64,000 nt of DNA, from positions 34,607,501 to 34,671,500 of the forward strand of contig NC_091670.1 of NCBI RefSeq assembly GCF_042453785.1, in the 5' to 3' direction. Origin of the DNA: Malus domestica (lineage: Eukaryota; Streptophyta; Magnoliopsida; Rosales; Rosaceae). The number at the start of each line of letters is the position of its first letter. Position 1 is the first letter of the stretch. A program made the position numbers and the translations under genes. The notes under the pieces were generated by a model. It did not search any database and had not been told where the DNA came from. It worked only from the letters and a program-made list of their open reading frames with translations. Shown in pieces: positions 8,232-28,122 of this stretch.

Positions 8232-9482
8232 TCATTCTTTTAACGGATTGAGAACATGACCAATGAACAGAACCGTTCCAGTCACTTCCTCTCTGACTAT
8301 AAACATAAACGGGTGATCAGCCACAAAGTTTATCGTTTTCGGTATAAATGGTTCATCATCACCATCCGCTTCATCGTCAAAGTCGCAAAGAGAAACAGCT
8401 GCAGCTTCTGTGCCTTTTTCATCAACTTCAATGAAGGATTTGTGAATTATTTTGGCCTTATCTATACGTGACTCCACCATCCCTGTCAAATCACCTTCAC
8501 CATTGAAAGGAAACACCAATCCTACATCCATGAGAACTTTAGAAGCTTCAAAGCCGGAGCTAATCTTAAACCTTGGGATTACAAAGGCACCAACCGCGAC
8601 TCTAGTTTCAGGGCGATGACGATCTAAGAAATCAGGCTCGGAACAAACTCTCTCAACAAAAGCTGGGAGCCCATCTTTCGCATCAGGAAGTAACAAGTAC
8701 ATACAAAATTGCCTCTCATTGTCTTCGCCTTGTTCGTAAGGAAGCTTCGAGACCTTGAAGCCGTCAAAGGCTTTTACAAACTGGTAATCGTAGCTTCTCA
8801 TGAAGCGCGCCTCAACAGAAGTACCGTCAAGAAGGTGGAAGTAGTCCTCTTCTAGTGTCTCCGATGTATCAAACGGGTCACTCCAATCTGCTTTAAAGTG
8901 TAAAGCATTTGAAAATATAAGCCTGGTATTGGTTTGGACTGTCCCAGGAGCAAGAACCTCAGTGATAAGGCCCTTCGTCGCCTTTTCAGCCCATGAGTTC
9001 ACTTCGGCTCTCGCTTCCTCAGGGTTGGTTTTAAAGTTAACTTGTTTTATAGCCGCCTTGTGAACTGTGTCCACAACCTCTTTGAAAGAAGGTTTGATGG
9101 GGAGAGATTCCTGAACCCAAAGGCCATTGGCAAAGTTCAGGCAAGGACCACCTCTAGCGGATCCGTCTGCGAAGATTAGAGGGACAAGATGGGAGGCGAG
9201 GGAGTTGAGTTGGTCGGTGGAGTTGGACTTGAGGAAAGAGAGCAACTGCTCCTTCGTGGGACCCTTCGACCCTGCCGTCAACAGCCACAACACAACCTGA
9301 ATGGACAGCGGCGAGTACACCATGTTTTTGTCTTTGCCTTCAGTGGTGAGCAGTTGCTTGGTAATTCTTAGTGCAACATCGGTTAGGTCGCTGATAGAAT
9401 TTTTGAGATCCATTCTTTGGGCAGGGAGGGAGGTGAAAGTGCTTGATCGATCGTTATTTGGGAGAGGAGAGACACCAGGCAA
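8232..9482 (-). CDS. Serpin with an acidic reactive-centre loop
   Basis: Serine protease inhibitor fold (serpin clade of plants), expected to trap a protease through its exposed loop. The single exon gives 416 residues. A second in-frame ATG at 9413 gives 393 residues and matches the usual plant serpin N-terminus. I keep 9482 because a TATA-like box at 9554-9561 would place transcription start upstream of it. Visible landmarks are [19 protein letters not shown] near the N-terminus, the hinge [10 protein letters not shown], and the C-terminal [18 protein letters not shown] and FIGHVLNPLKE. The loop after the hinge reads LCDFDDEADGDDEPFIPK. By hinge spacing the P1 residue falls on Glu/Asp, unlike the Arg or small residues common in plant serpins. 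No intron is seen, although several plant serpin genes have one (recall), so a retroposed origin is possible. Confidence 0.9.
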   Translation of the reverse strand: MPGVSPLPNNDRSSTFTSLPAQRMDLKNSISDLTDVALRITKQLLTTEGKDKNMVYSPLSIQVVLWLLTAGSKGPTKEQLLSFLKSNSTDQLNSLASHLVPLIFADGSARGGPCLNFANGLWVQESLPIKPSFKEVVDTVHKAAIKQVNFKTNPEEARAEVNSWAEKATKGLITEVLAPGTVQTNTRLIFSNALHFKADWSDPFDTSETLEEDYFHLLDGTSVEARFMRSYDYQFVKAFDGFKVSKLPYEQGEDNERQFCMYLLLPDAKDGLPAFVERVCSEPDFLDRHRPETRVAVGAFVIPRFKISSGFEASKVLMDVGLVFPFNGEGDLTGMVESRIDKAKIIHKSFIEVDEKGTEAAAVSLCDFDDEADGDDEPFIPKTINFVADHPFMFIVREEVTGTVLFIGHVLNPLKE

Positions 9483-18765: not shown

Positions 18766-20262
18766 TCATTCTTCGAGCGGATTGAGAACTTGACCAATGA
18801 ACATAACCGTTTCAGTCTTTTCCTCTCTGATAAAAAACATGAACGGGTGGTCAGCCACAAAGTCTATCTTTTTGCGAGGACTTAGAGGACCATAAGAGAA
18901 ATACATATCTACATAACTAGAAACAGCCGCTGCTTCTGTCCCTTCTTCATTAACTTCAATGAAGGATTTATGAAACATGGTGGCCCCATCTGGAGATGAT
19001 TCCACCATCTCTGTTAAATCACCTTCACCATTGAAAGGCAACACCAATCCTAAATCCTTGAGGATATCAGATGCTTTAAAGGAAGAGGAAAACTTAAACC
19101 TTGGGACTTTGAAGTCACCAACTTCCACTTGTGTTTCGGGGCAATATCGATCTAAGAAATTGGGCTCCGTACAAACTCTCTCAACCAAACTTGGGAGCCC
19201 ATCTCTTGTATTTGGAAGCAACAAGTACATTGAAAATTTCCGCCTCCTGTCTTTGCCTCGTGCGTAATGAAGCTTCAAGACTTTGAAGCCGTCAAAGGCT
19301 TTTACAAACTGGTCCTCGTCACTCGTCATGAACTGTGCCTTAACAGAAGTACCGTTGATAAGGTGGAAGTCGTACTCTTTTGTTTTCGATGCTTTGAACT
19401 TGTCCTTCCAAAGGCCTTTGAAGTATAAGGCATTTGAAATTACAAGCATGGTCTTCTTGTCAATCGACTCAGGAGGAAGAGCCTCAGTGATCGTCGCCTT
19501 TTCAGCCCATAAGTTCACTTCACGTCTCACTTCTTCAGGATTCTTGAAACTAACTTGTTTTATAGTTGCCTTGTAAGCACTGTCCACAACCTGTTTGAAA
19601 GCAGGTTTGATGAGGAGAGACTTCTTAACCCAAAGGCCATTGGCAAAACATAGGCAAGGACCGCCTCTGGCAGATCCGTTTGCGAAGACCAGAGGGACAA
19701 GATGGGAGGCCAGGGAGTTCAGTTGGTCGACGGAGTTCGACTTGAGGAAAGAGAGCATCTGGTCTTGGGTAGGACCCTTTGACCCGGCCGTTATTAGCCA
19801 CAACATAACCTGGATGGATAACGGCGAGTAAACAATGTTCTTCGACTTGCCTTCTGTTACGAGCAGATGAGTAGTAATTTTGAGACTGACATCGGTTAGG
19901 TTGCTGGCTTCTTTGGGATCCATGGTGAAACTGTCGGGATCACAATCCGAGAAGGGAAATGACTCGTTGGCTTCGTCGTCTGCCCCAGCTGTAGCAGGAG
20001 CAGCGATACCACCGAAGCCGTCACCAGTTTTATCAACTGCAATAGCATCACCACAACCAGATGGTACGGAGGAGGCCAACTTTTCCCGTCCAGACGCAAT
20101 AAGCTCTGTGATGTCTTTACTCTCGACTTCGGAAAGAAGAAGTTGAATCCTGTCATCATCAGCCTCAGCGCCGACAGAGCCAAGGATGTCCTTGAGATCT
20201 TCGGCAGAAGGGGAGGTCTTGCCCCCCAAAACGGCCAACAAGTATGCAGCTTCCACCTTCAT
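18766..20262 (-). CDS. Chimera: ribosomal protein P2 N-terminus fused to a serpin
   Basis: One uninterrupted 498-residue frame. Residues 1-67 are a clear 60S acidic ribosomal protein P2 N-terminal domain: [20 protein letters not shown], then [26 protein letters not shown]. Residues about 68-113 replace the Ala-rich hinge and lack the conserved acidic C-terminal tail (SDDDMGF-type) that recruits translation factors. From residue 114 (ATG at 19923) a full serpin follows, with [20 protein letters not shown], hinge [12 protein letters not shown] and [15 protein letters not shown]. The loop [12 protein letters not shown] puts Phe/Tyr near P1. Compared with serpin 1 it lacks three residues (KGL) in the WAEKAT-ITE segment, a conserved turn. 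Translation could also start at 19923, giving a plain 385-residue serpin. I see no stop or frameshift. Confidence 0.85.
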
Positions 20263-20346
20263 CTCTGCTTGAGAGGCTCTTGATTTGCGGAGTCTGGAGA
20301 AATATGCAGCCGATCGAATTCGAAGTGGAATACTACAAATGAAAAC

Positions 20347-20415
20347 TAGGGTTTATATTGCCACCAGGTTGGGTTCCCAGTTCTTCGGGTCAGCCCATTG
20401 GGTATAGAAGGCCCA
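20347..20415 (-). promoter_or_regulatory. Ribosomal-protein-type promoter: telo-box and site II
   Basis: On the minus strand there are TGGGCC (20410-20415), TGGGCT (20392-20397), and then the telo-box AAACCCTA (20347-20354), about 85 bases before the P2 ATG. An AATATAAACC stretch overlaps the telo-box. Telo-box plus site II is the known signature of plant ribosomal protein and translation-factor promoters. This suggests the P2 part arrived with its own promoter. Confidence 0.55.
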
Positions 20416-20778
20416 TTATCCTTATATCCATTACGTTTCAGTTGTTTAGCTGGCTAGGTTTCCGTTTCAGTATTTGGCATGAGTTGTATTTAACCTTATA
20501 TTTTCCGAGTAATACTAGAGAGATTAAATTTTTTAAACCAAATATGCAAACTAAATAATGTGGTTGTAGATTATTGAATTATTAATTAAGTGTCAGTTAA
20601 CGTGTTTGTTTCCTTTTGGTTACACATCATTTGGTTTGTAATTTAGTTTAAAAAATTTAATCATTCTAGCATCACTTTATTCCCATTTGCGAGGTTTATC
20701 AATGAATACTTTAGTTTTGTTTAATTTCCTCTCTATTTTTCTTCCTCAATTCTTCTGTCAACGGACAGACCTCATCAC
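20416..20778. other. Intergenic, upstream of the chimera
   Basis: A/T-rich sequence without a gene. Short inverted words (ATTAAATTTTTTAAACCAAAT near 20523 and its partner near 20640-20660) suggest a small degenerate MITE. Confidence 0.35.
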
Positions 20779-20890
20779 ACCATGAAATATAAAAGGTAAG
20801 TCCTTTATGCATAAAGGAAACAAAAATACCCATATCCACGATCAAACCCTAAAATGCTCACTGCTGTATTCTGACGTACGTACCTATAGG
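20779..20890. repeat. 112-bp direct repeat, left copy
   Basis: Near-identical to 21675-21788. Shared blocks include AAAAGGTAAGTCCTTTATGC, ATACCCATATCCACGATC and GTATTCTGACGTACGTACC. The part AAACCCTAAAATGCTCACTG with GCTGTATT also resembles the 5' flank of serpin 1 (9505-9535). The two copies flank the gene-capturing element. Confidence 0.8.
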
Positions 20891-20892
20891 AG

Positions 20893-21682
20893 CCGTTTGG
20901 TACATAGGATGGGACGGAACGGACTAGGACGAGATGTTCCATCTCACATTTAGTGCCCCTAAAATGGGTGGAATGCACTGTTCCACGGGACAAGTTTTGG
21001 GTAAATTTTCGTTACGCCTCACCCCCTTGGAACGACTCGTTCCACATCCGTGGAACACAAAATTATAACATTTTAAGACAAAAATACCCATCTCCCATTG
21101 TCTCTTTCCTCAGATCTCAACCTCTTCGTCTCTTTCTTCTTCCTCCTCGCTTCCATCCGAGCCCTAGTTTTCCACGGCATCTTTCAATATTTAGAAAATG
21201 GGGAAGCCATCCAAAAGGCAAGAAATCTAAGAATTTGGGGAAGGGAATGGTCACCCCCATCCAAATCGCCTTCATCGTCGACCGATACCTCTGCGACAAC
21301 AACTACTTGGTAACCCTCTCTCTTTTCAAAACCGAAGCTTCGTCCCTCATTGCCAAATCACCTATTCAAGAGGTACCCACTTGGTTTTACGCGACGATTT
21401 ATTCGAAATTGGTCTGAAAGATTTCTTATTTGTTTGATTTGGGATTTTCTTTTTTTTGCAGGCGCCGAAGAGTTTGCTGAGCGTGATGAACACTTACAAT
21501 GCTAGCGGAAGCCCCGCAGTTTCTGCACCTGCCGCTGTGGCTCCACAATCATTCAATCTTTTGGTTTCGTTCTATCCAACGCGTTCCAAACGCTGAACGG
21601 AACAACCGTCTTGTTCCGTCTGATGCGTACCAAACATACACGGAACCTCCGTTTCATCCCGTCCCGTCTGTGTACCATGAAA
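20893..21682. mobile_element. Pack-type TIR element carrying a host gene fragment
   Basis: The left end reads GTTTGGTACATAGGATGGGA then CGGAACGG. The right side has two candidate inverted partners: 21612-21635 (reverse complement GTTTGGTACGCATCAGACGG) and 21651-21682 (reverse complement with GGTACACAGACGGGACGGG). The interior has exon-intron-exon host-like sequence (21198-21590) and no transposase. Family is unresolved. 112-bp direct repeats flank it, far too long for a target duplication, so a later duplication must have occurred. Confidence 0.6.
21198..21590 (+). pseudogene. Captured fragment of a LisH-like host gene
   Basis: ATG at 21198 opens MGKPSKR, then a frameshift. The next frame reads KKSKNLGKGMVTPIQIAFIV and DRYLCDNNYLVTLSLFKTEA, with SSLIAKSPIQE up to 21372. 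A GT-AG intron follows (21373-21461, with a T-rich tract before CAG). The second exon reads APKSLLSVMNTYNASGSPAV. The pattern resembles the N-terminus of a plant protein with a LisH-like helix-turn-helix. Only the N-terminal exons are present and the frame is broken, so it is not a working gene. The intron shows capture at DNA level. Confidence 0.6.
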
Positions 21683-21788
21683 CATAAAAGGTAAGTCCTT
21701 TATGCATAAGGGAAACAAAAATACCCATATCCACGATCAAACCTTAAAATGCTCAAAGCTGTATTCTGACGTACGTACCTATAGAGAA
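21675..21788. repeat. 112-bp direct repeat, right copy
   Basis: Partner of 20779-20890. This copy continues into TATAGAGAACATGG, which resembles TATAGGAAG...CATGG at 9558-9580 beside serpin 1. It is therefore probably the original copy. Confidence 0.75.
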
Positions 21789-22555: not shown

Positions 22556-22789
22556 TGATAGTGTATATGGGTAGACAGGATATTGACAAGTGTCATTATG
22601 TTAGTAGTAATGTCTTAAGGAAGTTATGTGGGTGTAAAAGTATATATACTGAGTTGTAATTATTCTCATTCATTAATTCAATAGAGGAAAAACAGTTATT
22701 ACAATTCTCTCTCTAGTTTTCTCTGTCTAATATCTCTCTCTCAGTTTTTAAGAGTTACTTACACATTAAGCTTCCTCTGATCGTTATCA
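22556..22789 (+). repeat. 5' LTR of copia element
   Basis: 234 bp, starting TGATAGTGTATATGGG and ending GATCGTTATCA. It has a TATATATAC box near 22640. The extra 10 bases near 22747 are the only length difference from the 3' LTR. Confidence 0.9.
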
Positions 22790-22802
22790 TGGTATCTTCG
22801 CC
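22790..22802 (+). other. Primer-binding site
   Basis: TGGTATCTTCGCC directly follows the 5' LTR. The first seven bases match the usual start of a site complementary to initiator tRNA-Met (TGGTATC), but the rest departs from it. Confidence 0.5.
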
Positions 22803-23216
22803 GGTGGCTACCGCCGTTGAGTGACGATCTTGGTGCTTCTGCTTGCTTTCTCAATGTCGGTTGTGGATTCTGGTTGTTGTTGCTGCGTTGTGATGTCGGT
22901 CGTCGTCGATTGTTGCGCTTCTTCATTCCTTTGATTTGGGAATTTCTAGTACACTCTATCCAATTGTTGTGGGTTGATTTGTTTTTAGTCTGTGCTGTGT
23001 GATCTTTCTTTGCCTCGGTTGCATTCTTGGTCTTCGTTAAGAATCTGGTAGTTGATTTCTGCATCTGTGGCGTTTTTTGGATCTAAAACCCTAATTTTGG
23101 GAAATTGTGTTTTGTTTTGGAGTATTGAGGTTCAGTTTCTTGTAACGTTGTCTTCTTGATTACTGAAGTATTGTGATTGGTGTTCATATTGAAGTTATTT
23201 TCTTGTTCGATTCATC

Positions 23217-24515
23217 ATGGTGACTTCTTTGCAATTAACTCTCACACAATCTCCAATTTCATCTCTGATTCCGAGTGTTGGTAACACGGTCACTGTTAAA
23301 CTCGATGATTCTAATTACGTGACATGGAATTTTCAAATGGATCTACTTTTAAATGGTAATGGAATTCTGGGGGTTTGTTGATGGTTCCATTGCTTGTCCA
23401 GCGAAGTTTGATAGTATTGCTACTGAAGGTGGTACGGTTGTGCATGATACTATCATTTCTGATGCCTACAAAGTTTGAAAGATACATGACAAGGCTTTAA
23501 TGACTCTTATCACAGCCACTTTGTCACCATCTGCTTTGTCTTGCATCATTGGTTGTATTAGCTCTTGTCATATGTGGGAAACTCTGCGTGAATGATTTGC
23601 AAGTATAACCATAACTAATATTGTTCAATTAAAGATTGATATTCAGATATTAAAAAAGGACCAGAAACTATTGATCAATATTTGCAACGCATTAATGACT
23701 CTCGGGATCAATTGGCCACTGTTGGAGTTACAATTTCGGATGAGGATATTTTTATTGTTGCTTTGAGGGGTCTTCCTTTTGAATATAATACTATCAAAAC
23801 TGTTATCAGGGGTAGAGAAAGTTTGGTTAACCTGAAAGAGTTTCGCTCTCAACTTAAAGCTGAGGAATCCACCTTGAATGAAGCTGCTCAACAGCTACCA
23901 ATTATGTCTGCTATGCTTGCTCACAGATCTAGTTCTACGTCATTTTATGATCATGGTTCTACCTCTGGTGGTCAGTCTTCTTTCTTTCCAGAGTCATCAT
24001 CTGTATCACTACAGGGTTTCTCTCTATCAATGCCTCAGATGTCTTCGATGCTCCAAATGTCTCATATGTCTCCAATGTCCATGCCAGGTTATTCTCAACC
24101 TCTGTTTTCTCCTATATCTGCTGCATATGCTTCTCAATCCACCCAGCAGTTCGGCAACTCTGGTTCATACAATAATTTCCGGAACAACAATTACAAAAGC
24201 AAAGGAAAATGGAAGAAATTTTACTCTGGTTCTCCATCTGTCCAACAATTTGGCAACTCTGGACCTCAGTCCTTCTATCCTTCATCTGGTCAACAACAGC
24301 CTTATCCCACTGCTTATAATCCATTGCAAATTTGCCAGATTTGTGATAAAAATGGACATTCGGTACTCAATTGTTTTCAGCATGGATGTCAAATCTGCCA
24401 CAGGGTTGGACATGTTGCGGCTACTTGTTTTGATAGAAATAATGGTCAATCTCAGGCACATCCATATTATTCCTCATCTGGCATGATTGCTCCGCAACAG
24501 TATCATTCTCCTTAA
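23217..24515 (+). pseudogene. Copia gag pseudogene
   Basis: ATG at 23217 starts MVTSLQLTLTQS, with LDDSNYVTWNFQMDLLLNGN typical of plant copia gag. A frameshift near 23370 and stops near 23476 and 23593 break it. The frame is open again from 23682: IDQYLQRINDSRDQ, FEYNTIKTVIRGRESL. Two CCHC-like knuckles follow (CQICDKNGHSVLNC and CQICHRVGHVAATC). It stops at 24513. Confidence 0.88.
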
Positions 24516-24575
24516 CCGTATCCGTCTCCCCAACAGTTTTCATCTCTAAACCAGTACCCGTATTCATCCCAGGTT

Positions 24576-27500
24576 ATGATGTATCATGTCTCTTCACAGT
24601 CTTCTCCTATTGCTATGCCTGCAAGGATCAATCTGTTTCCCTATACACCTCAACAAGAATATTGGTTAGTGGATTATGAAGCCACTAATCATATGACTTC
24701 AGATATCTCCAATCTTCAAGAAGCTACACCTTATCCTTCTTCTGAAACTGTTACTGGAGCTAGTGGTGAAGGTTTAGCTATTGCTCACATTGGCAACACT
24801 TCTTTAACTACTCCATCTCATCAGTTTCAACTTAAATCTGTGTTACATGTTCCTCAATTGTCTCATCATTTGTTATCTATGAATCAGTTATGTCGAGATA
24901 ACAAGTGTCGGTGCATTGTTGATGAATTTTCCATTTGTATACAGGACAAGGCCACAGGACAAATGCTTTACCAAGGACTGAGTAACAATGTCGTGTATCC
25001 TCTTCCAGTTTTAAAACCTCCCAAGTCTCTTCATTTTCATACTGCAAGCTTTCTGGGACAAAAAGTATCTATTGAGCTTTGGCATTGCAGGTTAGGACAT
25101 CCTACTAATCCAGTGGTTAAAGCAGCATTAAGTAGGTCTAAGATTCCTTTCTCTTGTAATTCAAACCCCAAACCTTGTACTGCTTGCTTGCAAGGCAAGT
25201 TTACCAAATTACCTTTCCCTGTTGTTGCTTCCAAATATGTTGTTCCGTTTGAAGTAATTAATACCGATGTATGGGGTCCATCTCCTCATGTGTCTTTAGA
25301 GGGATTTAGGTATTATGTGTCTTTCATAGACGAGTGTACAAGGTATACATGGATTTTCCCATTAATGAATAAAGCTGGTGTGTTCACTGTGTTTGTTTAA
25401 TTCTTAGCTTTTGTATCTACTTATTTTGATGCTAAAGTTAAAATTGTACAGAGTGATAGGGGAGTGAGTATATTAGTTCCCAGTTTCAACTGTTTCTTCA
25501 AGAAAAGGGTATTGTTCATCAAAAGTCTTGTCCCTATACTCCCAAACAAAATAGGTTAGCTGAGAGGAAGAATAGGCATATAGTTGAGACTGTTATTACT
25601 TTACTTCAACAAGCTTCCCTTTCTGCCATCTTTTGGTATCATGCTTACGCCACTGCAACCTACCTTATAAATAGGATGCCTACACCCATTTTGCATATGC
25701 AATCACCTTTTGAAGTTTTACATCACTCACCACCTACACTGAATCATTTGCGGATTTTTGGAAGTGCTTGTTATCCATCTATGAAACCTTATAGATCTAA
25801 TAAATTAAACTCTAAGACCACTGAATGTTTCTTTCTCGGATATGCTGCTCATTATAAGGGATACATTTGTTTTGTTCCAACAAAAAACAAGATCATTTTA
25901 TCCCGCCATGTTTTTTTTTTATGAAACCAAATTTCCAAGTGTTCATTGGTCTCTTCCCTTACATTCTCCGTCTTCTATCTCTTCGCCCCATTCACAGTCC
26001 TATGTGGTGCACCCTAATACATTTACTCACAACAACCTTATTTCCATTCCCATCCCCTGTCCTATTGTTCCTAGGGTCTCCAATGTTACTCAGTCTTGTC
26101 CTTCACCATCTCCTATAAGTGGTGGCCTTGTCTCCTCTAGTCCTGCAGCTGGTAGTTCATTATGTATTCCAGAAAATAATACTCTGGATCGTTCCGTGTG
26201 TTTTTCAGAAGACAATCCTGATACTTCAATCTCTCAGGTTCCTGACCTTCAACCTGTCACAGTTAACTCTCATTCTATGCAAACTCGGTCTAAGTCTGGT
26301 ATTTTCAAAAAAAGAGCTTTTCATACTCATGTTACTTCAGAGTCTCATTCTCTGATTGAACCTCAATCCTTTAAAGTAGCTTCTAAGCTCTCTCACTGGC
26401 AAATTGCCATAGATGAGGAGATGAATGCTCTTCTACAACAACATACTTGGAGTTTGGTTCCTTTGCCTCCTCACAAGAATCTTGTGGGTTATAAGTGGGT
26501 TTACAAGATCAAGAAACATCCTGATGGATCTGTTGCCCGATATAAGGCTCGATTAGTGGCCAAAGGGTTCTCTTAAGAAACTGGTTTGGACTATTATGAG
26601 ACATTTAGTCCGATTGTGAAACCCACCACTGTTCGATTGGTTTTGTCCTTGGCTGCTACTCATGGTTGGAAGTTAAAACAATTAGATGTCAAGAATGCCT
26701 TTCTTCATGGCTTTCTTGATGAAGAAGTATATATGTCCCAACCTTAAGGTTTTGTGGATCCTGATCATCCAGATTATGTTTGCAAATTGGAACGATCTTT
26801 GATGGTTTGAAACAGGCTCCTCGTGCCTAGAATGACAGGTTTACCAAGTTTCTTATTCAGTTGGGTTTCACTACTTCTTAAGCTGATCCTTCCTTATTTG
26901 TCAAGACCATTGATCGTTCGGTTATGATTCTTTTGCTATACGTGGATGATATCATTCTTACTGGTACTAGTGATGATGTTATTCAATCAATGATTTCTCA
27001 ACTTACTACTGAGTTTGACATGAAGGATTTGGGCATTCTCCATTTTTTTCTCGGGTTGCAGATTGAGTATCAACCTCAAGGCTTATTTGTTCATCAATCC
27101 ACATATGTGAAGGCATTGTTGCACAAAGCAAATATGTTGGATTGCAAGCCATGTCTTACTCCCTGTCATCCATATCAGAAATTACTTTCACATGGTAGTT
27201 CTTCGGTTGTTGATCCTGGTTCCTATCGAAGTCTTGTAGGAGCTTTGCAGTATCTTACTTTTACTCGCCCTGATATTGCTTTCTCAGTCAATCAGGTTTG
27301 CCAATTCATGCACTCTCATCTTGAGTCGCATTTAGCTGCAGTAAAACGCATCTTAAGATATCTGAAAGGTTCTATACACTTGGGGCTCTGCTTTCGTCCT
27401 GGTTCCTTTCACTTACGAGCCTATACAGATGCTGATTGGGCCGATGACCCTAATGATCGTCGTTCTACTACTGGTTTTGTGATTTTTCTCGGGTCTAATC

Positions 27501-27901
27501 CAATTTCCTGGAGCTCCAAGATGCAGCATACTGTGAGCCGGTCCTCTACTGAGGTTGAATATAGGGCCATGGCCACTACTACTGCTGAGATCGTTTGGAT
27601 TCAACAGTTGTTACAGAATCTTCATATGCCGGTTCTCGACACTCTTTTGCTTCACTGTGATAACATCTCTGCAATGGCTCTTGCTACGAATCCTGTGTTT
27701 CACTCCAAGTCCAAGCATATTGAAATAGATTGTCACTTTGTGCGTGAAAGAGTTCAACGTGGTACTATTTTGTTACAGTTTGTTAATTCTGCAGATCAAT
27801 ATGCTGATGTTTTTACTAAAGGCCTTTGTTCTCCTCAGTTTCGTTTTAACTGTTCCAATCTCATGCTTGGTTGTTCTCAGCAAAAGTTTGAGGGAAGATG
27901 A
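24576..27901 (+). pseudogene. Copia pol pseudogene
   Basis: Protease comes first. Its active site, normally DSGA, reads DYEA in YWLVDYEATNHMTSD, so the catalytic Ser-Gly is lost. GAG-pre-integrase (LWHCRLGHPTNPVV) and integrase (VINTDVWGPSP, FIDECTRYTWIFPL) follow, then a stop at 25398. RT is in pieces with stops at 26574, 26746 and others, but YVDDIILTG survives at 26939. RNase H (TDADWADDPNDRRSTTGFVI, CDNISAMALATNPVFHSK) is intact to the stop at 27899-27901, which overlaps the LTR start. Confidence 0.9.
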
Positions 27902-28122
27902 TAGTGTATATGGGTAGACAGGATGTTGACAAGTGTCATTATGTTAGTAGTAGTGTCTTAAGGAAGTTATGTGGGTGTAAAAGTATATATACTGAGTTGT
28001 AATTATTCTCATTCATTAATTCAATAGAGGAAAAACAGTTATTACAATTCTCTCTCTAGTTTTCTCTGTCTAATATCTATCTCTCAGTTACTTACACATT
28101 AAGCTTCCTCTTATCGTTATCA
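27899..28122 (+). repeat. 3' LTR of copia element
   Basis: 224 bp with the same ends as the 5' LTR (TGATAGTG and GTTATCA). The preceding purine tract GAGGGAAGA serves as the polypurine tract. The pol stop codon shares its first bases with the LTR. Confidence 0.9.

Follow-up and report, generated by a model that had tools for sequence, protein, structure and literature searches.

Within the window, meaning the whole 64,000-nucleotide stretch of Malus domestica DNA that was analyzed, a reading frame of 498 codons runs without a stop from ATG to TGA on the minus strand (20262-18766). In this frame the N-terminal part of ribosomal stalk protein P2 precedes a serpin. Residues 17-99 match PF00428 (Ribosomal_60s; E 7.2e-9, 36.5 bits against a cut-off of 28.1), and residues 122-495 match PF00079 (Serpin; E 6e-86). 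The frame opens with the P2 N-terminal dimerization domain (codons 1-63; 20074-20262 (-)), delimited by comparison with a P2 gene on contig C14, and continues with a relaxed segment derived from the P2 hinge (19975-20073 (-)), which overlaps the region common to a sister serpin on contig C2. A linker (19924-19974 (-)) that is partly common to the same sister (EAN.SFP.SD, DSFT) leads to an intronless serpin of 385 codons from its own ATG (18766-19923 (-)), recognized by alignment and profile search. P2 similarity is detectable until about residue 94-97, followed by about 17 residues to the serpin ATG.

The P2 part finds its best solved-structure match in wheat P2 (PDB sequences, all ten matches listed) and keeps 30 of the 32 positions at which wheat and human P2 are identical; by sequence criteria, the fusion contains the P2 N-terminal dimerization domain. 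The acidic tail, which in the C14 gene ends in SDDDMGFSLFD, is absent from the fusion, and a six-frame scan of the window for the tail motif [GA]F.[LM]FD found nothing. As it lacks this tail, the fusion is not classed as a working P2. The serpin half covers profile positions 3-370 of 370 in PF00079 (290.5 bits against a cut-off of 27), and its top solved-structure match is Arabidopsis Serpin-ZX, 3le2 (396.6 bits, and 394 for a paralog in the window; PDB sequences, best 60 of 206 matches). In the conserved TNGxI loop after residue 257, the fusion reads T, a gap of three residues and I (19491-19494 (-)), where 3le2 has TNGLI, the paralog TKGLI and the C2 serpin TKGHI. The sequence-only reading had described a tail-less P2 N-terminal domain in one frame with a complete serpin; the joint frame and the missing tail hold, and completeness holds for the length of the serpin domain but not for the conserved loop. 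The reactive-center loop region with its hinge lies at 18862-18948 (-) by alignment, and the hinge equals that of 3le2 through EEGTEAAA. Judged against the consensus, this is a hinge of the inhibitory type, and the serpin half may act as an inhibitor. An AlphaFold model of the fusion from a two-row alignment had a mean pLDDT of 32.5, too poor for use.

The paralogous serpin (8232-9413 (-)), identified by alignment, is likewise intronless and has its native leader directly upstream and no P2 part. Its reactive loop (8345-8390 (-)) is strongly acidic, CDFDDEADGDDEPF, unlike that of the fusion. Plant serpin genes typically carry a single intron at a conserved position (PMC7692276; PMC3534287), which both window serpins lack. 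The genome contains 51 serpin matches, of which eight (L001-L008, including both window serpins) span almost the entire profile uninterrupted, although one contains a stop. In some of these eight there seems by eye to be an intron just past the start (cag/TCGACC boundary), and the serpin genes on C8 are split near profile position 121. Two others, L002 on C6 and L006 on C4, have open N-terminal extensions that look targeting- or membrane-like by eye (MASFIALRR..., MASPLKLIS...).

Upstream of the P2 ATG lies a promoter of the ribosomal-protein type (20347-20415 (-)), with site II motifs (TGGGCY) at 20415 and 20397 and a TATAAA at 20357 that overlaps a telo box, AAACCCTA, at 20354 (-). The telo box lies 92 bp and the site II motifs 135 and 153 bp before the ATG at 20262. 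These are the usual distances in plant ribosomal protein genes, for which the published ranges are 0-280 bp for the telo box and 80-400 bp for site II (PMC3022908), so by sequence the fusion has the layout of such a promoter. The window contains eight telo boxes, and that of the fusion is the only one with site II motifs within 120 bp; it has two.

The surroundings hold several further elements. A MITE-like short element with 36-nt inverted arms (20508-20676) is situated directly upstream of the P2 promoter. Farther out are a Copia-type retrotransposon (22556-28122) with terminal repeats that are 94% identical, and pieces of a second retrotransposon near 13.6-16.4 kb of the window. A ribosomal protein L7/L12 gene (41592-42305 (+)), apparently of the organellar type, also encodes a stalk protein, which is probably a coincidence.

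Origin of the P2 part and site of the joint

A search of the genome (19 contigs, 651 Mb, with the window on contig C10) with the P2 part of the fusion returned 17 matches, mostly single exons. The 16 matches besides the fusion, all compared to it by blastn, represent exons of about eleven loci. Each of the five P2 genes that were read has an intron within codon 30; the C14 gene has a 5'UTR intron and a tail intron in addition, and the C12 gene also has a 5'UTR intron. Similarity between the fusion and the P2 genes extends from about 20313 in the 5'UTR to about 19981 in the coding sequence, and the 5'UTR stretch (20263-20313 (-)) is without its intron. At the 5'UTR site, near 20269/20268 (-), the fusion reads CTCTCAA/GCAGAGATG without an intron, and at the codon-30 site, 20175/20174 (-), it reads GGCTCTG/TCGGCG. 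Because both upstream introns of the P2 genes are missing at their sites, the P2 part of the fusion is a processed copy by sequence comparison. No poly-A was seen at the joint by eye, and a 12-bp repeat, ATGGATCCCAAA, surrounds an extension in the C2 sister only.

One further intronless P2 copy lies at 22.03 Mb on C12 and another at 20.41 Mb on C4. Both are broken: the C12 copy has lost 1 bp, and the C4 copy has lost 17 bp and contains a stop. No serpin was found in the surrounding sequence that was read, 4.5 kb for one and 5 kb for the other. The promoter stretch TGGTGGCAATATAAACCCTAGT of the fusion has a similar counterpart in both copies and is absent in the C14 gene. This common stretch suggests that the P2 part was probably derived, through copying at the DNA level, from an intronless P2 gene already equipped with a promoter. 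We also considered whether a P2 tail and 3'UTR were retained before the serpin ATG, but a 3'UTR resemblance, TTTTCACCAT, failed against shuffled sequences: the value of the C2 sister was equaled by 67 of 500 shuffles, and the best match of the fusion was to the hinge instead.

The site of the joint can be read from the leader that, in the paralog (9413-8232), lies immediately before the ATG. In a scan with a 34-mer of this leader, the best matches apart from itself were at 20878 (28/34) and 21773 (26/34), the next reaching 23, and none of 300 resampled cores reached 26. The first match (20878-20845) lies in a segment, D1a (20779-20889 (-)), that forms a 111-bp direct repeat with D1b (21674-21784 (-)); the two are 95% identical, and D1b holds the second copy of the displaced leader. 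As a control, 40 different 34-mers taken from the sequence upstream of the paralog were scanned, and four gave window matches of 27-29, so match size alone is not unusual in these repeat-rich flanks. What counts for the identity of the leader is its common position before serpins, and the same leader also precedes the C2 and C15 serpins. A gapped alignment of the paralog leader with D1a gave a weak signal (26.5, maximum of 500 shuffles 25), and the 34-mer scan together with the C2 and C15 leaders is the better test.

Furthermore, the two window serpins have homologous 3' flanks (79% over 71 bp). Together with the leader upstream of the fusion, this means that the P2 piece entered between the serpin leader and the serpin ATG, and by sequence it sits between the displaced native leader and that ATG. 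The reverse event, insertion of a serpin into a P2 gene, was rejected on account of the homologous 3' flanks, the upstream leader and the lack of a P2 tail match in the window. A second captured gene piece lies between the D1 repeats: a fragment of two exons with a GT-AG intron (21247-21500 (+)), which we take to be LisH-like. A frame that overlaps it (20908-21414) matched nothing in Pfam, and terminal inverted repeats around the fragment were rejected (20.5, maximum of 200 shuffles 22.5).

Age of the joint and selection on its halves

The nearest serpin among those fetched is the C2 gene (L003/L011, C2:7954418-7955554; 73% amino acid identity), which groups with the fusion in a ten-sequence tree (bootstrap 97). 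Between its native leader and the serpin start, this gene has an in-frame extension of 81 codons with the 12-bp repeat at both ends. The extension begins MDPKQNP..., includes a basic RKKPK stretch and aligns with residues 54-113 of the fusion (score 84, against at most 65 in 1000 shuffles), with 9, 12 and 21 differences at the first, second and third codon positions. It also resembles the hinge in other P2 copies, with scores of 44.5 and 36.5 where 500 shuffles each reached no more than 25 and 22, respectively, and a 3-nt insertion in the hinge is common to the fusion and the C2 sister. The P2 N-terminal domain is missing from the sister, and its upstream sequence showed no P2-type promoter stretch.

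An in-frame remnant of the P2 hinge in the C2 sister suggests that the joint probably predates the split between the two genes. It is probably also older than the genome duplication, as the serpin halves of the fusion and C2 differ by a dS of 0.46, while the bL12 gene pair of the colinear block shared by the window region on C10 and C5 has a dS of 0.36. Apple chromosomes 5 and 10 are homoeologous. The P2 pair C14/C12, which may be homoeologous as well, has a dS of 0.14 in codons 1-63 and of 0.30 in the hinge. Serpins are present in the homoeologous C5 block, where no P2 was found at E up to 1 in the 78 kb read. The simplest history would be one joining event, after which the C2 gene lost its N-terminal domain, the one line of evidence for it being the common hinge with its common 3-nt insertion. 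Alternatively, recombination in the hinge could have brought the N-terminal domain to the C10 gene after the C2/C10 split.

Selection on the two halves was analyzed separately, as the earlier reading had proposed. The P2 comparisons comprised five intron-bearing P2 genes and the two intronless copies, with the stretches on C14 (3.36 and 26.5), C17 and C9 outside the set; codons with gaps or stops were dropped. Against the C14 gene, codons 1-63 of the fusion have 58 of 63 residues the same (dN 0.040, dS 0.485), and their dN/dS of 0.08 (bootstrap 0.02-0.19) is similar to that of working P2 genes. In the next 30 codons, the hinge, 12 residues differ (dN 0.300, dS 0.234). Working P2 genes have dN/dS values of 0.05-0.17 in the first part and 0.06-0.26 in the hinge (C14 against four others), and the fusion against the five P2 genes has 0.07-0.25 and 0.35-1.28. 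The contrast between domain and hinge depends on the reference gene, as the extremes are 0.25 for codons 1-63 (against the C10 P2) and 0.35 for the hinge (against C11).

The unfused intronless copies have changed at 14 of 62 and 11 of 59 residues and contain frameshifts and a stop. Fisher tests of the fusion against these copies, which ignore possible differences in their age, gave P values of 0.026 for the first copy and 0.034 for both pooled. Relative to C14 and C12, the fusion has five private amino-acid changes and 10 silent ones; with the C10 P2 as a third reference, its branch can be assigned just two amino-acid and six silent changes. In a neutral simulation, so few changes without a stop had a P of 0.11, 0.011 and 0.002 at 5, 8 and 10 silent changes. 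Collectively, the P2 domain appears to have been kept by selection and the hinge relaxed, and the constraint on codons 1-63 could partly predate the joining. The dN/dS of the serpin half is 0.32 against C2 and 0.50 against the paralog (bootstrap 0.375-0.677). Its branch in the tree (0.209) shows the same rate as that of the C2 sister (0.210), and its private changes (32) match those of the paralog (33).

A candidate chimeric protein and its alternatives

The reading we favor, with reasonable though incomplete confidence, is that the locus is an old chimeric gene for a selected chimeric protein in which a P2 dimerization module stands ahead of a serpin. It builds on features read in the DNA itself, namely the open frame, the processed origin, the displaced leader, the partly shared joint and the pattern of constraint. 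A processed P2 copy with a ribosomal-protein-type promoter would have been joined in frame upstream of the serpin, displacing the leader. Transcription from the P2-type promoter would then yield an mRNA whose first ATG opens a protein of 498 residues, ordered as P2 dimerization domain, degenerate flexible hinge and serpin. Selection would have retained the P2 domain and the serpin while the hinge and the P2 tail were let go.

P1 and P2 associate through helices 1, 2 and 4 of the N-terminal domain of each, whereas their tail is flexible (PMC3794596). The P2 domain of the fusion may pair with P1 or with itself, and a cytosolic serpin would thereby be held on free P1 or the ribosomal stalk, or be dimeric, without a P2 tail of its own for recruiting translation factors. 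We consider it possible, and propose it only tentatively, that the serpin rides on the stalk or the P1 pool as a tail-less stalk copy, where it might guard stalk proteins or nascent chains against proteases, or serve as a sensor. A V4E change in the first helix of the P2 domain and the three-residue loss in the serpin loop call for caution, since both weigh against a working chimera. Moreover, the C2 sister does without the P2 N-terminal domain, so the domain is dispensable in that gene.

The sequence-only reading had left open whether the P2 part acts as a protein domain or only as a donor of promoter and leader, the serpin being made from 19923 with the P2 codons unused. We regard the second option as unlikely, although the context of the serpin ATG, TTCACCATGGA, is stronger than that of the P2 ATG, GCAGAGATGAA, by the usual rule for start-codon contexts, and the serpin ATG aligns with the start of the paralog. 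In rice, moreover, serpin models were trimmed of 117 and 126 extra N-terminal residues because full-length cDNA for these was lacking (PMC3534287). However, if the transcript starts near 20345, as assumed from the TATA box, its first ATG is the P2 ATG at 20262. ATGs at 20159, 20156 and 20048 are out of frame, read beyond the serpin ATG and end at 19896, so a ribosome missing 20262 likely misses 19923 too, and the ATG layout favors the fusion rather than the serpin alone. Donation without translation also fits poorly with the amino-acid constraint on codons 1-63 and with the extension of the C2 sister, which is still open with its differences weighted toward third positions (9, 12, 21). Thus, constraint and the broken unfused copies favor the protein domain, and what stands of the other option is that the P2 promoter was donated.

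It is also improbable that the locus is an unexpressed or decaying chimera that has stayed open by chance so far. The relaxed hinge, the damaged serpin loop, and the nearby retrotransposons and captured gene fragment would be expected of such a locus, but its 498 codons are still open across a joint that is probably older than the serpin dS of 0.46, whereas both unfused intronless P2 copies are broken. In addition, the serpin half has evolved no faster than its sister, and its unique changes match the paralog's in number. Finally, continued activity of the serpin promoter in D1, with the P2 region spliced out as an intron to give a normal serpin, would accord with the leader copies at 20878 and 21773 and a possible acceptor (...cccgacag, by eye) ahead of the serpin ATG, but is very improbable given the 13 ATGs that an unspliced transcript would hold between 20880 and 20345 and the constraint on the P2 codons.

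Comparison with known systems

In a limited literature search and among the PDB sequence matches listed, we met no report of a stalk dimerization domain on a serpin. Pattern searches for P2 relatives in viral and prokaryote contigs gave 23 and 224 matches, none of which was confirmed, and 19 plasmid records among the matches listed matched the serpin region only, at less than 60% identity. If translated, the gene would tie protease control to the ribosome, or exemplify how a serpin can acquire, in a single step, both a dimerization module and a housekeeping promoter.

With the cytosolic 60S acidic ribosomal protein P2, the fusion has in common the N-terminal domain, where it agrees with the C14 gene at 58 of 63 residues, and a ribosomal-protein-type promoter, but it lacks the acidic tail and the introns, its hinge is relaxed and a serpin replaces the tail. 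With plant serpins such as AtSerpin1 (3le2) and the window paralog it shares the full serpin domain and the reactive-loop hinge, and differs in its 113-residue, mostly P2-derived extension, the absent intron and the three-residue loop loss. Rice OsSRP-PLP is likewise a plant serpin with an N-terminal extension, supported by cDNA; however, this extension is short (45 residues), and its printed sequence is not that of a ribosomal protein domain (PMC3534287). The C2 sister also has an in-frame extension derived from the P2 hinge, but it has kept its native leader and has neither the P2 N-terminal domain nor a detected P2-type promoter stretch, which makes it the natural comparison without the P2 domain. 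Plants have a known class of chimeric retrogenes, in which a processed copy is fused to another gene. Like these, the apple gene combines a processed copy with another coding sequence; in contrast to them, it brings a P2-type promoter and links a stalk dimerization domain to a protease inhibitor.
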